A stretch of DNA of 40,991 nt from Ectothiorhodospiraceae bacterium (GTDB lineage: Bacteria; Pseudomonadota; Gammaproteobacteria; Nitrococcales; Aquisalimonadaceae), in the NCBI GenBank assembly GCA_007125985.1, contig SLCE01000228.1:1-40991 (forward strand), read 5' to 3'. Each line of letters opens with the position of its first letter. Position 1 is the first letter of the stretch. The translations under genes were made by a program, and so were the position numbers. A model generated the notes under the pieces. The model was not told where the DNA came from. It worked only from the letters and a program-made list of their open reading frames with translations, and searched no databases. Below, one piece after another: positions 30,539-39,548 of this stretch.

Positions 30539-30586
30539 TTGACGCGGTTGGCGGGTGCCGCCATTATCCGGACGGACCAGTCCGTC
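30539..30586 (+). promoter_or_regulatory. promoter with overlapping TetR-type operator for the efflux operon
   Basis: TTGACG (30539-30544) and CATTAT (30562-30567) are exactly 17 bases apart, a near-consensus sigma70 promoter. Three bases after the -10 is the perfect palindrome GACGGAC-CA-GTCCGTC (30571-30586), centred on the expected transcription start and 20 bases before the tetR start codon. This is the classic arrangement of an autorepressed TetR gene. Confidence 0.75.
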
Positions 30587-30605
30587 AATGCGATTCCGGG
30601 TAGCC

Positions 30606-31244
30606 ATGACGATCATCCACGGTGCACAGAAAACGCCCCGCGTGCGCAAGGCGGCGGCTGAGCGGGAAGCCGAGATTCTGGCGGCGGCCACCACCGTGTT
30701 CGCGCGCGAGGGTTACCGGTCAGCGGATGTGCAGCGGGTTGCCGATCTGGCGGGCGTCGGCAAGGGAACGGTGTATCGGTATTTCCCGACCAAGGAAGCC
30801 CTGTTCCGCGCAGCGCTCAAGCGCTGTCTCGACCGGCTTCGGGCCTGCAGTGAGGCCGCGCGTGCGGGCGCGGATGATCCGCTGGCGCAACTGAGGGCTG
30901 TGCTGCGGGCCTATTTCGGCTTCTTTGACGATAACCCGGAAGCCATCGAACTGTTCATCCAAGAACGGGCGGAATTGCCGGGCGACGGCGCTTCCCTGTA
31001 TTTCGTGTATTTCGAGGCTCATCATCAGGAATGGGAAGGCATGATCATCGGGTTGCAGGAGAACGGTGTCCTGCGACGATTGCCGCCCCGCACGATCCTT
31101 GAGCTTTTGAATGACATGGCCTACGGCGCGGTCGTTTCCAGCACGCTGTCGCTCAACCGCGCCCCGCTGCGTGAGCGCGCCGATCTGATCATCGATATTT
31201 TCCTCAACGGGCTTGCCGTGCGGCGATCGCAGCACAGTGCCTGA
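30606..31244 (+). CDS. TetR/AcrR family repressor of the RND efflux operon
   Basis: DNA-binding protein of 212 aa. HTH domain: EREAEILAAATTVFAREGYRSADVQRVADLAGVGKGTVYRYFPTKEALFRAAL. The effector domain is helical with FGFFDDNPEAIELFIQERAEL, typical of regulators next to RND pumps. The start ATG at 30606 is chosen because the alternative at 30588 lies within 2 bases of the operator. The gene is the first of the plus-strand efflux locus; about 58 bases separate it from the adaptor gene. Ligand unknown; it probably represses its own promoter and the downstream pump genes. Confidence 0.92.
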   Translation: MTIIHGAQKTPRVRKAAAEREAEILAAATTVFAREGYRSADVQRVADLAGVGKGTVYRYFPTKEALFRAALKRCLDRLRACSEAARAGADDPLAQLRAVLRAYFGFFDDNPEAIELFIQERAELPGDGASLYFVYFEAHHQEWEGMIIGLQENGVLRRLPPRTILELLNDMAYGAVVSSTLSLNRAPLRERADLIIDIFLNGLAVRRSQHSA

Positions 31245-31302
31245 TTACCGACGCCCTGCGTTCAGGCCGGGCCCATCCAGCAGCATGAACTGGAGTGCAT
31301 TC

Positions 31303-32451
31303 ATGACACAGGCAACCAGTGGCCGATCGGCATTTTCCGGTGTTCTCCTTGTGGCCGCGATGCTGCTTGTCGGCTGCGGCACCGAGCCGGGAGGCAATGG
31401 CGAGCAGGAAAGTCCGGCACCGCGGGTGACGGTGGCAACGGTGGAGACGCAGGACGTACGGGTTCAGGGTGAGTACGCGGGACGGGTCCGTGGCTCCCGC
31501 GAGGTGGAGGTGCGTGCCCGCGTTGAGGGTCTGCTTGAGGAACGGCTGTACACCGAAGGTCAGTTGGTGGAGGAAGGCGATGCCCTGTTCCGTATCGATC
31601 CGGAGCCCTACGAGATCGCCGTCCGCAGTGCCGAGGCGGAACGGGCCGATACCGCGGCAAGTCTCGCCCAGGCAGAACGGGAGTGGGAGCGCATTGCCGG
31701 CCTGTATCAGCGGGATGCGGTCAGCCGCCGGGAGCGGGATCAGGCGGAAACGAACCGGCAACTGGCCGAGGCGCGGCTCTCGCTGGCCGATGCCGCCCTC
31801 GCCGATGCCCGCCGTAACCTGCGTTATACCGAAGTGACGGCGCCGGTGTCCGGCGCCACGGATCTGGAGAGTCTGCCGGAAGGCAGCCTGATTGAACGCG
31901 GCACGCTGCTCACCACCGTCACGCGCCATGATCCGGTCCACGTCCGCTTCGCGCTGCCGGAAACGGATGCGGGCATCCAGCGTCTGGCCCGCCGCGCCAT
32001 GGGGCGTGGCCAGGATGAGGTGCAGCCGTACACGGCACAGGTGATTCTGCCCGGCGGTGAACCCTACGAACGCGAGGGGGAGGTGGATTTCACCGCTAGC
32101 ACCATCAACCCGCGCACCGGGACGGTATCCGCCCGGGCGGTGTTTGAAAACCCGGATGGCGATCTGGTTCCAGGCCAGTTCGTCCGTGTGCGTCTGCTCC
32201 TGGAGGAACTGGAAGACGTGTTCCTCATCGACCAGCGCGCCGTGGGTGAGGGCCGGGATGGCCCGCAGGTCTTCGTGGTGGACGATGACGCTGTGGCGCA
32301 CGTGCGCACCGTGCGGCTCGGCCCGGTGGTGGATCGCCGGCAGGTGGTGCTGGAAGGGCTGGAAGCCGGTGACCGGCTGGTGGTGAACGGCATGGCCGGC
32401 CTGGAGGATGGCGCCTCTGTTGATGCCGCCGAGGCCGACGAGGAGTCCTGA
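31303..32451 (+). CDS. RND efflux periplasmic adaptor (membrane fusion) lipoprotein
   Basis: Links the inner-membrane pump to the outer-membrane channel (382 aa). Lipobox LLVGC follows a signal segment. Order: first lipoyl half and beta strands ([22 protein letters not shown]), helical hairpin ([21 protein letters not shown] onward to [13 protein letters not shown]), second lipoyl half ([29 protein letters not shown]), beta-barrel, and membrane-proximal domain ending in [17 protein letters not shown] precedes the ATG at 31303 by 9 bases, which decides it against the ATG at 31285. One base separates its stop from the pump start. Confidence 0.95.
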
Positions 32452-32452
32452 C

Positions 32453-35400
32453 ATGCTGCGCTTTTTCATCGATCGGCCGATTTTCTCCTCGGTGATTTCG
32501 TTCATCATCGTTCTGGCCGGGTTGGCCGCGCTGAACAACCTGCCGGTGGAGCAGTATCCCGACGTGGTGCCGCCGCAGATCGTGGTGCAGGCCAACTATC
32601 CGGGTGCGAGTTCCGAGGTGCTGGCGGAGTCGGTGGCGGCTCCGTTGGAGCAGGAGATCAACGGCGTGGACGACATGATTTACATGGAGTCCACCAGTAC
32701 CGATGCGGGGTTCCTGCAGATATCGGTGTCTTTCGAGATGGGAACCGACCCGGATCAGGCGGCTATCAACGTCAATAACCGGGTGCAGGCCGCCCTGCCG
32801 CGACTGCCGCAACAGGTACGTGATCAGGGCGTACGGGTTGAGGCGCGGTCCACCAACATCCTGATGGTGCCAGTGCTGAGTTCGCCGGATGGCCGCTATG
32901 ATTCCCTGTTCATCAGCAACTATGCGCTGCTCAACGTGCTGGATGAGCTGGTGCGTTTGCCCGGCGTGGGTGATGCGCGGCTGTTCGGGGCCCAGGACTA
33001 CTCCATGCGCGTCTGGCTGCGGCCGGACAAGTTGGCCCAGTTCGAACTCACACCCTCGGATGTGGCCGCTGCACTGCGCGAGCAGAACGCCCAGTTCGCC
33101 GCCGGCCGCATCGGAGCGGAGCCGGCGCCGGAGGAGCAGGCCTTTACCTTCACCGTGACCACCGACGGTCAGCTGGAGAGCCCGGAAGCCTTCGAAGAGA
33201 TCATCCTGCGGTCCGAAGGCGACGGCAGCACGCTGCGACTGGGTGATGTGGCGCGGGTCAGCCTGGGCGCCCAGCGCTACGAGTTTTCAGCCACGTACAA
33301 CGGCGAGCCCACGGTGCCGTTGGGTATCTACTTGCAACCTGGCGCCAACGCGCTGGACACCGCCCGCGAGGTACGCGCAGCGCTGGCCGATGTGTCCGAC
33401 CGTTTCCCGGATGGCCTGGAATACACGGTGGCCTATGACACCACGGAATTCGTCGAGATTTCCGTGCGCGAGGTGTTCATCACGCTGCTGATCGCCGTGG
33501 CGCTGGTCATCCTGGTGACGTTCCTGTTCCTGCAACATCTGCGGGCGACGCTGATCCCCGTGGTGGCGATTCCGGTGTCTTTGATCGGCACCTTCGCCGG
33601 CATGCAGTTGATGGGTTTCTCGGTCAACCTGCTAACCCTGTTCGGCCTGGTGCTGGCCATCGGCATCGTTGTGGACAACGCCATTATCGTCATGGAGAAC
33701 GTGGAACGACTGATGGCGGAGAAGGGGTTGAAGGCGCGGGAAGCCTCCATAGAGACCATGCAGCAGGTCGCCGGCGCCGTGGTGGCCTCCACGCTGGTGC
33801 TGGTGGCGGTGTTCGCACCCGTGGCCTTCTTGGGCGGACTCTCCGGCGAGCTTTACCGGCAGTTCGCGGTCACCATTGCCGTTTCGGTGGTGGTCTCGGG
33901 CGTGGTGGCGCTGACCCTGACGCCGGCCATGTGTGCCCTGTTGCTGGACAAACAGAAGCACACCGTGGCGTGGCCGTTCGCCGTGTTCAATCGTGCATTC
34001 AATGCCCTCACCCGCGGTTTTGTGGCGACGGTGGGGCTGTTGCTGCGTTTCCGCAAGGTGGGTGTGGTGCTGTTTCTGCTGTTCTGTGGCACCGCGGTGT
34101 TTCTGATGGAGCGGATGCCTTCCGGCCTGGTGCCGCAGGAAGACCAGGGTGTGGCGCTGGTGGTGGGGCAGCTACCCCCGGTTTCGGCCCTGGGCCGCTC
34201 GGAGCAGGTACGGGATGACCTGGCCGATCGCCTGCGTGAGATCGACGAGATCGAACGGTTCACCGCCTTTGCCGGCTTTGACATCATCGCCTCCTCGCTT
34301 CGGTCCAACGCCATTATCGGCTTCGCCAACCTGAGCGACTGGTCCGAGCGCCCTGATCCCGCTCAGCATGCCTCAGCCGTCGTGGGAAAGATCATGGGGG
34401 TCGGGGCCGGCATGCAGGAAGCCAACGTGTTCGCCTTCACCCCGCCGCCGATTCAGGGACTGTCTCTCACCGGCGGTGTGGAAGGCTATCTGCAGGTCCG
34501 CGGCGAGACCACCACGGATGAGGTGGAAGCCCTCGCACAGCAGGTGGTGGAGGCCGCCAATGAGCGGCCGGAACTGACCAATGTGCAGGCCACGCTGGAC
34601 ACCGGCATCCCCCGCTACAGCGCCACCGTGGACCGGGAAAAGGCCCGGGCGCTGGATGTGCCCATCGACAGCATTTTCGAGACCATGCAGAGCACGTTCG
34701 GGTCACTGTATATCAATGATTTCACCTACCAGGGGCGCCTGTGGCAGGTGAACATGCAGTCGGAGGCCGAGTTCCGCAGTCAGGCGCAGGACCTGCGGCA
34801 TGTCTTCGTCCGCTCCGGTTCGGGTGAGATGGTGTCGGTGGATTCGCTGGTGACGCTGAAGCGGGGCAGTGGCGCCGATATCATCAATCGCTTCAACATC
34901 TACCAGTCGGCCCGCCTGCTCGCGGATCCAGCGCCCGGTTTCACCACCGGGCAGGCACGCGAAGCCATGGAGGAGGTTGTCGCCGGTCTGGGCAGCGAGA
35001 CCCAGACCACGCTGGGCTGGATCGGCGAAGCCTATCAGTTGCAGGCCGCCTCCGGTGCCGGTGGTGCTGCCTTCGGGCTGGGGCTGCTGATGGTGTTCCT
35101 GATTCTGGCGGCGCAGTACGAGCGCCTCACCTTGCCGCTGGCCGTGGCCACGGCGGTGCCCTTCGGCGTATTGGGTGCGGCGCTGGCGGCGACCTTGCGC
35201 GGCTTCCCCAACGACATCTATTTCCAGGTGGGGCTGCTGGTGCTGATCGGTCTGGCGGCGAAAAACGCCATTCTGATCGTCGAGTTCGCAGCCCAGAACC
35301 GACGGGCGGGCATGAGCTCCACCGACGCCGCCATGGCCGCGGCGCGGCAGCGTTTCCGGGCCATCATCATGACTGCGATGACCTTCATCATCGGCACGCT

Positions 35401-35587
35401 GCCGCTGGTGTTTGCCACCGGCGCCGGCGCAGCCAGCCGGCAGGAGATCGGCACGGTCGTGGTGGGGGGTATGATCGCCGCGAGCACCCTGGCGCTGCTG
35501 TTCGTGCCCTTGTTCTACAAGCTCTTTGATGATCTGGCCACCTGGCGCCAGAATCGCCGCCAGGCGAAGGAGGCCAATGATGCGTAA
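32453..35587 (+). CDS. RND multidrug efflux pump, HAE1 (AcrB-like) family
   Basis: Proton-driven inner-membrane exporter of 1044 aa, full length for the family. N-terminus [20 protein letters not shown], followed by the first periplasmic loop with [24 protein letters not shown]4 region [25 protein letters not shown]; second periplasmic loop; TM10 [18 protein letters not shown]. Proton-relay residues: Asp408 and Lys937 are present, but the second Asp of the AcrB pair is Asn409, as in a known subset of HAE1 pumps. AGGAG lies about 9 bases upstream of the ATG. Overlaps the outer-membrane factor gene. Substrates cannot be inferred. Confidence 0.95.
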
Positions 35588-37028
35588 GTGGGGGGTGATC
35601 GCCGTCAGCGCGCTGTTCCTTGCCGGTTGCGCGGTGGGGCCGGACTACCAGCGCCCGGAGCTGGATCTGCCCGAGGACTGGCCCGAGCATGTGCTGCTTA
35701 GTGAGGACGAGCAACAGGCCTGGCAGGACTGGTGGACACGGTACCAGGACCCGCAGCTGGATGCTCTGGTGGAGCTGGCGCTGGACCATAATCTGGATGT
35801 CCGGCTGCAGGTGCAGCGCATTCAGGAATCCCGCGCCCGGCTGGGCCTGGTGGATGCCAATCGCCTGCCTACGCTGGACGCCCAGGCGGAGGCGGCGCGG
35901 GAACGCCAACCGGCCGCCGCCGCGCCCGCCTCGGGTGCCGGAGGCACCGGCAATCTGTTTTCCATCACCGGCGCACTGGGCTACGAGCTGGATCTGTGGG
36001 GGCGTCTGGCGCGTCAGCAGGAAGTGGCCGAGGCCTTTCTGGAGCAATCCCGGTTCAGTCATGAGGCTGTGCGGCTGAACGTGGTGGCGGACGTGGTGGC
36101 CACCTACGTGAACCTCCGCAGTGCGCAGGAGCAGTTGGCGATTACCGAACGCACGCTGGAGTCCCGTGAACGCACCTTCGACCTGGAGCGGATTCGCCAT
36201 GAGGACGGGGAAACCGATGCGTTGACCCTCCGCCAGGCGGCTTCGGAGCTGGAAACCACCCGGGCACGGATTCCCCCGCTGCGCCAGGAGGTACTGACCC
36301 TGGAAGGAGCGCTGGCCGTGCTGTTGGGGATGGGACCAGGCGAACTGCTCGGCGAACTGGACTTCGGTGACAGCCGCCTTGCCGATTTGGAGTTGCCGGA
36401 TCAGGTGCCCGCCGTCATGCCGTCGGAACTGCTGCGCCGCCGCCCTGATATCCGCGCGGCGGAGGCCGAGTTGATGGCGTCCACCGCGGAAATCGGTGTC
36501 GCTGAGGCCGACCGGCTTCCCAGACTGAACCTGATGGGGTTCCTCGGCACGGCCGCCACCGATACCAGCGATCTGTTCAGCGGGCCGGCGCAAACCTGGG
36601 GGCTGGGCGCCTCGGTGGCCGGGCCGCTGATTGATTTTGGCCGCGGCCGTGCGCGGGTGGATACAGCGGAAGCCCTGCGCGATCAGGCGGAAACCCGCTA
36701 TGCCATCACTGTGACCCAGGCGTTCCGCGAGGTCCGGGATGCCCTGGTGCTGTACCAGGCCACCGACGAGCGCGTGGGGGCCATCCGGCGGCAGGTGCAG
36801 GCCATCGAGGAGACGCGCGATCTGGCGCAGATCCGCTACGAGGAAGGCTTTACCGGTTTCATCGAACTGCTGGACGCCGAACGCGCCCTGCTGGATGCGG
36901 AACTGGCCCTGAGCGAGGCCCTGCGGGATCGCCTCGGGGCGACGGCCACACTGTTCAAGGCTATGGGCGGCGGATGGACGGATGGGCACCCTGAACTGGG
37001 CGCAACAGAGGCGCTCCAGGATGGTTGA
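35580..37028 (+). CDS. outer-membrane efflux factor, OprM/NodT family lipoprotein
   Basis: Outer-membrane exit channel of the RND pump (482 aa). Signal peptide with lipobox FLAGC, then [18 protein letters not shown], the standard start of NodT-type factors. Two tandem OEP repeats follow, with [20 protein letters not shown] and [21 protein letters not shown] in the first and [35 protein letters not shown] and [19 protein letters not shown] in the second. Start at the second of two adjacent ATGs (35580), 6 bases after GGAGG and overlapping the pump stop by eight bases. Ends overlapping the MipA gene. Confidence 0.95.
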
Positions 37029-37839
37029 CCGTCGGGGCCTGGTGTCCCTGTTGTTCCGCACCGTTGCCCTGTCCGCCGTTCTGTTGCTGACGGGTCAGGC
37101 CGCGGCGTCAGACTCGCGTGAGGCCATGGCGGCCATGCAGATGCCGGAGGGCGCCTGGCGCGTCGCCGCGGGCGCCGGGGTGGGTCTGTTTCCGGAGTAT
37201 TCCGGCGCCTCCACCTACCGCACGCTGCCGCTTCCCTTCATTGACGTGGCCTGGGGCAACCGAGTCCGGATCAATCCGGCGCAGGGCGTCCGCCTGGACG
37301 TGCTGCCCGGACGACGCTGGGACGGCGGACCGGTGATCCGCTACCTGGGCGGGCGCTCAGCGCGCGGCGCCATTTCGGATCTGGACACCGTGCGGGGCGG
37401 GGCCGCGGCCGGTGCCTATCTACGGTATTCCCTGGGTCCGATCCAGCTGCGTGCCGAGGCGGTCAGCCCGTTTACCGGCGACACCTCCGGCACGCGGGTC
37501 TCCTTCGGTGCGAACTGGCGCGGGCTGCTGGGGCCGCGGGCGTTTTACGCTGTTGGTCCGTCTGCGGTGTGGGACAGCAGCAACCGGGCCGATCGGCTAT
37601 ACGGTCTGTCAGAGGCGGACGCCGATCTGCTCGGAGTTGCTCCGCATGAGGCGGGCAGCGGCGTCGTCAGCGTCAGGCTGAGCGGCACCCTAGTGTGGAT
37701 GATTGATCGCAACTGGAGCCTGACCAGTTTCGTTCTCGCGGGGAGACTGGTGGATGATGCGGCGGCGAGCCCCATCGTTGACGACCTGGGCAATCGGAAC
37801 CAGGGACTGGTGGGCCTGATCGGCCTCTACCGCTTCTGA
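37021..37839 (+). CDS. MipA/OmpV family outer-membrane protein
   Basis: Beta-barrel protein of 272 aa. Signal peptide (VALSAVLLLTGQAAAS), then WRVAAGAGVGLFPEYSGASTYRTLPLPFIDVAWGNRVRINPAQGVRLDVL, the diagnostic MipA/OmpV opening in which the barrel strands alternate. It ends in an aromatic Phe (GLVGLIGLYRF), as outer-membrane barrels do. In E. coli MipA scaffolds peptidoglycan synthase and hydrolase; in other bacteria relatives are tied to antibiotic and metal tolerance. ATG at 37021 overlaps the outer-membrane factor stop by eight bases, so it belongs to the efflux operon and may support envelope function of the pump. Confidence 0.9.
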   Translation: MVDRRGLVSLLFRTVALSAVLLLTGQAAASDSREAMAAMQMPEGAWRVAAGAGVGLFPEYSGASTYRTLPLPFIDVAWGNRVRINPAQGVRLDVLPGRRWDGGPVIRYLGGRSARGAISDLDTVRGGAAAGAYLRYSLGPIQLRAEAVSPFTGDTSGTRVSFGANWRGLLGPRAFYAVGPSAVWDSSNRADRLYGLSEADADLLGVAPHEAGSGVVSVRLSGTLVWMIDRNWSLTSFVLAGRLVDDAAASPIVDDLGNRNQGLVGLIGLYRF

Positions 37840-37854
37840 AACGAGGAGTGAGGG

Positions 37855-38385
37855 ATGAGCCAGCCTGGAATGCGCTGGCCAGTGCCGATTTTTTCTGCGC
37901 TTGCGCTGCTTGTGGCTTGCGTGCCCGCCCAGGCCCTGGAGGTTGGGGTGCGGATCGGCACGAATCTGCGCGGAGCGCAGGGCGTGGATTCACAGGAAGT
38001 CTACGTGCGCGCGCCACTTCCGTACGCGGTCGGTCAGCCGCAGGGTTGGCACCTGCGCAGCTACCTGGAAGCCAACGCCGGGCGGTTGGTCACCCGCGCT
38101 GATTCCCTGGCCTATGGGGGCGTCGCCGGTGCCCTTTGGCTCAACAGTCCTGCCTCGCCGCTGAGCCTCGGTGCCGGCACCGGTCCGACCTACCTGTCGC
38201 AAGCCACGCTGGGGCATCGGGATTTTGGGGGACACTGGCAGTTCACAAGCCATGCCGTCGTCCGGTTGGCGTTCACGCCGGCGGTGAGCCTCGCCTATCG
38301 GGTGCAGCATACGACCAATGCGGGTCGCTACTCGCCCAACGATGGGATCGACATCCATGCGGTGGAACTGCGGTTGCGATTCTGA
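37855..38385 (+). CDS. PagL-like lipid A deacylase homologue with substituted catalytic residues
   Basis: Small outer-membrane beta-barrel (176 aa) with signal peptide LALLVACVPAQA. The C-terminal signature YRVQHTTNAGRYSPNDGID, then ...LRLRF, matches PagL (lipid A 3-O-deacylase) where the catalytic triad is His-X-Ser and Glu twelve residues after the Ser. Here His152 is kept, Ser is Thr154 and Glu is Asp166 at exactly the same spacing. It is unclear whether the enzyme is active. GAGGAG ribosome site about 9 bases before the ATG; 15 bases after the MipA gene, hence likely the last gene of the efflux operon. The earlier part of the barrel is weakly conserved, so the family call rests mainly on the C-terminus. 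Confidence 0.72.
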   Translation: MSQPGMRWPVPIFSALALLVACVPAQALEVGVRIGTNLRGAQGVDSQEVYVRAPLPYAVGQPQGWHLRSYLEANAGRLVTRADSLAYGGVAGALWLNSPASPLSLGAGTGPTYLSQATLGHRDFGGHWQFTSHAVVRLAFTPAVSLAYRVQHTTNAGRYSPNDGIDIHAVELRLRF

Positions 38386-38492
38386 TCCTTCCGGATGAAC
38401 AGAAATGGCATCGCCAGGTCCGGGATCAGGAGAGCTTGCTAACCTTGATGGAGAGTCTCCGACCAAGGTGGTAGCAACGGAAGGGAGGCGTT

Positions 38493-39548
38493 ATGCGTAT
38501 CGGGGTTCCCAGGGAGATCAAGCCGCTGGAGGGGCGCGTCGCGCTGATACCAGCAGCCTGCAGTGACTTGGTTCGTGCCGGACACACAGTCTACGTTCAG
38601 GCCGGGGCGGGCGAGAAAAGCGCCTTCAGCGACGCGGAATTTGCCGCGGTCGGCGCAGAGTTGGTGCCGGATGCCGCCACCCTGTATTCAAAGGCCGAAT
38701 TGGTGGTCAAGGTCAAGGAGCCCGTGGACGGGGATCTGCGGCACCTGCACGCCGACCACCGGCTGTTCTGTTTTCTGCACTTGGCCGCGGAGCCGGCGCT
38801 GAGGCGCAGGCTGCTGGACATCGGGCTTACTGCGGTCGGCTTCGAGACGGTGGAAGAGAACGACGGCAGCCTGCCGCTGCTTGCCCCCATGAGCCTGATC
38901 GCAGGCAGCCTTGCTGTGCAGATCGGTGCCCACCTGTTGCACCAACCCCAGGGCGGCAAGGGCGTATTGCTCGGCGGGTTGCCGGCAGCTCCCAGGGGTC
39001 ACGTGGTGGTGCTGGGTTCGGGCGTAGCGGGCGGTAATTCAGCCAGGCTGGCCGCCAGCATGGGGGCGCGGGTCACCGCGTTCGACAAGCGGATGGATCG
39101 CATGAGCGCCATGATGAACGCCGCACCCAACGTCACCGCCCTTTACCCTTACAGCGACGTGGTGGCCGAGATGCTCAGCACCGCCGATCTGGTCATTGGT
39201 GCCGTGCTGGTCACCGGAAGCCGCACCCCCCGGCTCGTCACTCGGGACATGGTGGCATCCATGGAGCCGGGTAGCGTTATCGTGGATGTCTCGGTGGATC
39301 AAGGCGGCTGCGTGGAAACCACCCATCCCACCACCTATGCCGATCCCACCTATCAGCAGCTCGGGGTCACCCACTTCGCCGTCACCAACATGCCGGGTGG
39401 CGTGCCGCGCACCGCCAGCCACGCCCTGTCCGCGGCGATACTTCCCTACGTGCAGCAGATCGCGGAGCCCGAGTGGCAGGACCACCCGCCGTTGGCCCGT
39501 GGGGTGAATGTCAGCGACGGCGAGCTCGTGCACCCGGCTCTGCGGTAG
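38493..39548 (+). CDS. ald: alanine dehydrogenase
   Basis: Cytoplasmic NAD-dependent interconversion of L-alanine with pyruvate and ammonia (351 aa; slightly shorter than the usual 370). N-terminal MRIGVPREIKPLEGRVALIP is the AlaDh/PNT signature. Pyruvate-binding Lys75 (VVKVKEP) and catalytic His96 (CFLHLAAE) are in their canonical positions. The nucleotide motif is VVVLGSGVAGGNSARLAASMGA, followed by DKRMDRMSAM and VIVDVSVDQGGCVETTHPTTY; the last is an active-site loop conserved in AlaDh. GGGAGG lies about 6 bases before the ATG. Monocistronic; converges with the next gene. The short region 38386-38492 before it holds no obvious gene. Confidence 0.93.
   Translation: MRIGVPREIKPLEGRVALIPAACSDLVRAGHTVYVQAGAGEKSAFSDAEFAAVGAELVPDAATLYSKAELVVKVKEPVDGDLRHLHADHRLFCFLHLAAEPALRRRLLDIGLTAVGFETVEENDGSLPLLAPMSLIAGSLAVQIGAHLLHQPQGGKGVLLGGLPAAPRGHVVVLGSGVAGGNSARLAASMGARVTAFDKRMDRMSAMMNAAPNVTALYPYSDVVAEMLSTADLVIGAVLVTGSRTPRLVTRDMVASMEPGSVIVDVSVDQGGCVETTHPTTYADPTYQQLGVTHFAVTNMPGGVPRTASHALSAAILPYVQQIAEPEWQDHPPLARGVNVSDGELVHPALR

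Follow-up and report, generated by a model that had tools for sequence, protein, structure and literature searches.

PagL is an enzyme that trims one fatty acid from lipid A. The Pseudomonas aeruginosa enzyme (PDB entry 2erv) has a His/Ser/Glu triad, which we take to be numbered H126/S128/E140. In Salmonella, lipid A deacylation in vitro was carried out by wild-type PagL and abolished in the H163A/S165A double variant (PMC4958258), and the B. pseudomallei protein is described as keeping all conserved catalytic residues (PMC6204721). Bordetella holmesii PagL has both His and Ser, yet it seems inactive in the cell (PMC5454989), and catalytic residues alone are therefore no proof of activity. Passages of a further paper (PMC12571757) have no bearing on the active site. 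No Thr variant of PagL, activity data included, appears among the literature matches listed, in a search outside which most subscription papers lie.

Here we describe a PagL-family protein encoded in a 40,991-nucleotide stretch of an Ectothiorhodospiraceae bacterium genome (hereafter the window). It resembles P. aeruginosa PagL in its predicted eight-stranded barrel, in an active-site segment that aligns without gaps, and in sharing the His and both conserved Asn residues. It differs in carrying Thr for the catalytic Ser and Asp for Glu, and the two proteins are 16-17% identical over structural alignments.

A PagL-family gene with threonine at the nucleophile position

The gene is an intact ORF, with ATG at 37855, a stop codon ending at 38385 and an AGGAG-like stretch visible by eye just 5' of its start. 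PagL (PF09411) is the only Pfam match of the encoded protein at E <= 0.001, scoring 65.4 bits against a cut-off of 23 (E 7.3e-18, profile positions 17-135 of 136), whereas an NCBIfam search of the protein returned no match. A phmmer search of the PDB retrieved 2erv as sole match at E <= 1 (E 6.4e-4), in line with the PagL homology put forward in a preliminary description of this DNA. Profile searches of the window's own genome found a single PF09411 match, the protein described here; LpxR (PF09982) was matched neither by this protein at E <= 0.001 nor anywhere in the genome. By sequence, the protein is a member of the PagL homologous family, and it is a homologue, probably an orthologue, of PagL-family outer-membrane proteins in its bacterial family. 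As the catalytic Ser is missing, we file it as a homologous-family member only, and sequence by itself gives no ground for annotating it as a PagL deacylase.

The phmmer alignment to 2erv runs without a gap over residues 105-170, active site included, and places the window segment HTTNAGRYSPNDGID opposite HYSNAGLKQPNDGIE of 2erv. Because this segment is ungapped, His152, Thr154 (+2) and Asp166 (+12 from Thr) can be equated with the His, Ser and Glu of 2erv, so that the spacing of the preliminary description holds. The catalytic His is thus present as His152, while the Ser expected at His+2 is replaced by Thr154, which is flanked by Thr153 and Asn155. The His-orienting acid, Glu in the P. aeruginosa enzyme, is represented by Asp166, an acid and not strictly Glu. 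The conserved Asn residues at +3 and +10 from His are both present: Asn155, which presumably has a role in the PagL active site, and Asn162, at what we take to be the proposed oxyanion-hole position in PagL. Ser160 (+8 from His) lies opposite a Gln of 2erv, and all of the eight nearest homologues have a Ser at +8 besides the catalytic one. We rejected an alternative Ser as nucleophile, given the gapless alignment, which leaves no room for another Ser in the active site, and given that Ser160 is common to 8/8 nearest homologues that also carry the catalytic Ser.

Table 1 Coordinates of the PagL-family gene, its active-site codons and the neighboring genes in the window
Feature	Position	Strand	Basis or remark
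TetR regulator	30555-31244	+	upstream
Membrane-fusion protein (MFP)	31213-32451	+	upstream
AcrB-like RND pump	32408-35587	+	upstream
Outer-membrane efflux protein (OEP)	35526-37028	+	upstream
MipA/OmpV-family outer-membrane protein	36982..37839	+	PF06629 E 6e-33; 15 bases from its stop to PagL start
PagL-family (PF09411) outer-membrane protein, 176 aa	37855..38385	+	ORF; Pfam; 2erv sequence match; sole genome match
Probable signal peptide, residues 1-27 (AQA end, then LEV)	37855..37935	+	by eye from translation; model helix 10-21, low confidence there
His152, catalytic-base position, codon CAT	38308..38310	+	2erv alignment; His in 243/249 aligned sequences (one without column coverage)
Thr154, nucleophile position, codon ACC	38314..38316	+	2erv alignment; Ser in 244/248 sequences covering the column
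Asn155, conserved Asn adjoining nucleophile	38317..38319	+	Asn in 232/249
Asn162, conserved Asn	38338..38340	+	Asn in 241/249
Asp166, Glu position of P. aeruginosa PagL	38350..38352	+	column: Asp 85, Asn 78, Glu 56, Thr 19 of 249
Alanine dehydrogenase (AlaDH)	38493-39548		downstream of PagL

Variation of the active site across the family

The search for PF09411 covered 59 genomes from the window's surroundings, 398 from its phylum and 369 from its class, in draws that overlap and include the window's own genome. The final table was read from 270 of 303 loci, the other 33 being repeats or larger neighborhoods of the same genes. Leaving aside 16 of the 270 that failed to match the profile, 254 remained; two of these (L290, L295) had no aligned stretch, and the other 252 correspond to 249 distinct sequences, 248 of which cover the nucleophile column. 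The survey alignment profile was built from 54 rows, and the sample leaves out three places below the cut-off (G720, G722, G657).

The nucleophile column is nearly invariant, its four non-Ser entries being two Thr, one Asn and one Cys, and on this count the window's Thr goes beyond chance. The second Thr belongs to L279, a weak match (E 0.0067) that lacks the His and is probably misaligned. Among the 243 His-bearing sequences, 241 carry Ser, one carries Cys (L246) and one, the window protein, carries Thr; this distribution indicates very strong selection on the position to remain Ser, and nowhere else in the sample is Thr tolerated as an alternative. The acid column is far more permissive: besides the residues given in Table 1 it holds four Ser, four single other residues and three gaps, and within the window's own order Asp is found in 26/36 ORFs. 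Asp166 as an anomaly was rejected, Asp being the commonest residue of the column. Only the Thr at the nucleophile position is exceptional; at the Glu position Asp represents the ordinary state. The preliminary description had treated both non-His positions as changed and had named many known active members with these residues as grounds for refutation; the first point stands for the Thr, unique among the His-bearing sequences, and falls for the Asp. On the second point the sample holds no such members for the Thr, and Asp is common to many members, known here by sequence.

Several other variants were seen in the survey. Many PF09411 relatives combine the His-Ser pair with a neutral third residue (Asn or Thr). 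L246 (G748:C66:3697-4450), encoded on the minus strand of a gammaproteobacterial genome, has His-x-Cys-Asn and is a possible Cys-based variant; it resembles the window protein as the only other His-bearing sequence without a Ser nucleophile, and differs from it in having Cys, not Thr, and Asn at the acid position. The catalytic His is replaced by Arg in L198 (G593:C180) and by Tyr in L199 (G699:C40), both of which keep the Ser; their genomes are related (family f235, genus g372), pointing to a candidate lineage of inactive PagL-like barrels. L257 (G701:C38), a short frame (96 aa), has Asp for His, and L249 (G504:C73) is without both His and Ser. Since these four members lack one or both of the two catalytic residues, loss of activity in a retained PagL-like barrel probably happens. 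In viral contigs, 32 stretches matched a pattern and no relative was confirmed.

Origin of the threonine and constraint on the gene

The eight nearest homologues (L016, L014, L007/L061, L013, L017, L018, L027 and L023) are 40-61% identical to the window protein. Three of them, L016 (60%), L014 (57%) and L061 from Alkalilimnicola ehrlichii AK92 (49%), are near-full-length matches from the same bacterial family and order, with the same motif region. All eight differ from the window protein in having a Ser nucleophile, have Asp, Asn or Thr at the acid position, and are found without the window's neighboring genes. Their nucleophile codons are TCG, TCC or AGT, as opposed to ACC in the window. A single base distinguishes ACC from TCC, and two bases distinguish it from the TCG found in L016 and L014, the two nearest homologues. 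In a tree of 25 homologues, many forks of which are unresolved, the window protein groups with L016 (support 94/87); this sister bears Ser, and the Ser-to-Thr change most simply arose on the branch leading to the window alone. Besides the window's own genome, two genomes of the genus were searched: one (G001) has the Ser version and the other (G002), 99%-complete, has no PF09411 match, so that Thr is found in one genome only. Since G002 and, more widely, 26/59 searched genomes of the surroundings (own genome included in the 59) are without a match, the PagL-family gene is, judged by gene content, dispensable in the window's group.

Nine columns reach a conservation of 75% or more in the rest of the alignment, and the window protein keeps 8/9, the exception being the nucleophile. 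Tajima relative-rate tests of the window against L016 with seven outgroups were not significant (chi-square 0.13 to 1.88), the end branch measures 0.40 for the window and 0.30 for its sister L016, and comparison of the two genes gave pN 0.26, pS 0.61 and dS about 1.3. At this dS, a rough estimate that was not computed gives an unconstrained residue about one chance in four of surviving on the window's branch; had the loss been old, it is therefore very unlikely that chance would have preserved the eight other conserved columns. Neutral drift after an old loss is thus unlikely. A pseudogene, or long-term decay, is not supported, with 8/9 conserved columns kept and a normal rate. The pattern fits a recent change, whether weakening or inactivating, an error of sequencing or assembly, or a still functional Thr.

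Genomic surroundings and predicted fold

Between 30555 and 38385 of the window, the genes for the TetR regulator, MFP, RND pump, outer-membrane channel, MipA and PagL are co-directional, with short gaps or overlaps, and co-transcription of the PagL gene with the pump genes is possible. Genes for MFP, RND, OEP, MipA and AlaDH were not found beside the homologue in eight loci (4.3 to 12.5 kb, some with contig ends near the gene). These eight loci, some of them short, do not support a conserved arrangement of the gene in one operon with MipA and the RND pump. In G001, the flanking ORFs resemble trehalose-phosphate synthase and PurT, from a reading of their translations. A simple scan of 36800-38600 gave no match to a sigma-70-type promoter; the + strand of this region has two terminator-like sites, at 37034 and, early in the ORF, at 37872, where chance would give 0.8. 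The scan carries little weight.

An AlphaFold2 model was built from two rows only, the window protein and its Alkalilimnicola ehrlichii homologue. It has eight strands and a helix at the signal peptide, with a mean pLDDT of 65.7, about 85 over residues 131-150 and 65 to 72 over residues 151-170, where the active site lies. Foldseek returned 2erv as the best PDB match of the model (E 3.9e-5), and VIA-align placed 2erv third (Z 12.8, rmsd 3.0 over 137), on a par with OprF, a designed barrel and OmpA. The model is thus an eight-stranded outer-membrane beta-barrel, and because of this tie the fold by itself does not distinguish PagL from other small barrels. The fold is that of a small outer-membrane barrel, and the PagL identity comes from sequence.

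Discussion

Four explanations can be weighed for a PagL-family protein that has lost the family's Ser and kept nearly everything else; the weights that we give them are a matter of judgement and were not computed. The most likely one, which we hold tentatively, is that 3-O-deacylation was weakened or lost after a recent Ser-to-Thr change. A recently weakened or lost enzyme is a third option beyond the Thr-based deacylase and the non-enzymatic binder offered by the preliminary description. In this reading the eight-stranded barrel would be built for lipid A binding, with its active-site pocket on the outside, both the pocket position and lipid A binding being carried over from PagL. The nucleophile codon would have turned from Ser to Thr on the window's own branch, for which one base suffices, with the His, both conserved Asn, the Gly and the acid type commonest in the family all retained. 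Strong weakening or loss of 3-O-deacylation would be the likeliest consequence, since Thr has one methyl group more than Ser, which would leave too little room in the small pocket that lies between His and the oxyanion site, an idea that comes from general serine-hydrolase chemistry. The change would be too recent for the rest of the gene to have begun decaying, and Asp166 needs no explanation. In favor of weakening or loss count the near-invariant Ser of the family, the Ser of the sister and of all eight nearest homologues, the dispensability of the gene, the inactive Salmonella double variant and the relatives that have lost catalytic residues. Three points speak against it. Conserved columns, rates, branch length and pN versus pS give no sign of relaxed constraint; Thr retains a hydroxyl, unlike the usual random loss; and an ancestor with TCG would need a further silent change to reach ACC.

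The same hydroxyl, together with the His, both Asn and a family-typical acid, would suit a working deacylase, in which Thr154 would serve as nucleophile, His152 as its activator and Asp166 would orient the His, carrying out the PagL reaction, perhaps more slowly or on another acyl ester. We regard this reading as less probable, although far from negligible. The gene shows no rate acceleration, and with a sole PF09411 match and no LpxR in the genome, the lipid A O-deacylase function of these families would rest on the window protein alone. Against a working Thr, the residue occurs once in 243 His-bearing sequences and is no accepted alternative across the sampled family, and natural Thr nucleophiles are best known elsewhere, in N-terminal nucleophile hydrolases and not in Ser-His outer-membrane esterases. 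If the reading is right, the protein would be, to our knowledge, the first PagL-type esterase of the outer membrane found in nature to use threonine as its nucleophile.

That the real residue is Ser, and the Thr a sequencing or assembly error or a base from a minor strain in a draft genome of 248 contigs, strikes us as improbable. One base separates ACC from TCC, the Thr is present in one assembly only, and no second genome of the species was found among those searched; however, the ORF is uninterrupted, assembled contigs seldom contain substitution errors, and the TCG of the nearest homologues is two bases from ACC. Least probable of all, and a distinctly poor prospect, is a true pseudoenzyme maintained in a selected new role as a non-enzymatic lipid A-binding barrel: barrel and pocket residues are conserved without the canonical nucleophile and other His-less family members exist, but His152, the acid and a hydroxyl residue would be kept without obvious reason if only binding mattered, and no partner gene is conserved beside the homologue in the eight loci.

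For the family, the survey shows that only a minority of sequences (56/249) carry the Glu of the textbook triad, most sampled relatives having Asp, Asn or Thr in its place; the third triad member is therefore unfit for calling a homologue unusual. If the window protein is inactive, it would offer a clean natural example of an enzyme soon after loss of its nucleophile. If it is active, it would present an outer-membrane esterase of the Ser-His type working with a Thr nucleophile, and a useful natural test of how much the PagL site tolerates, and would mean that this barrel site can swap Ser for Thr.
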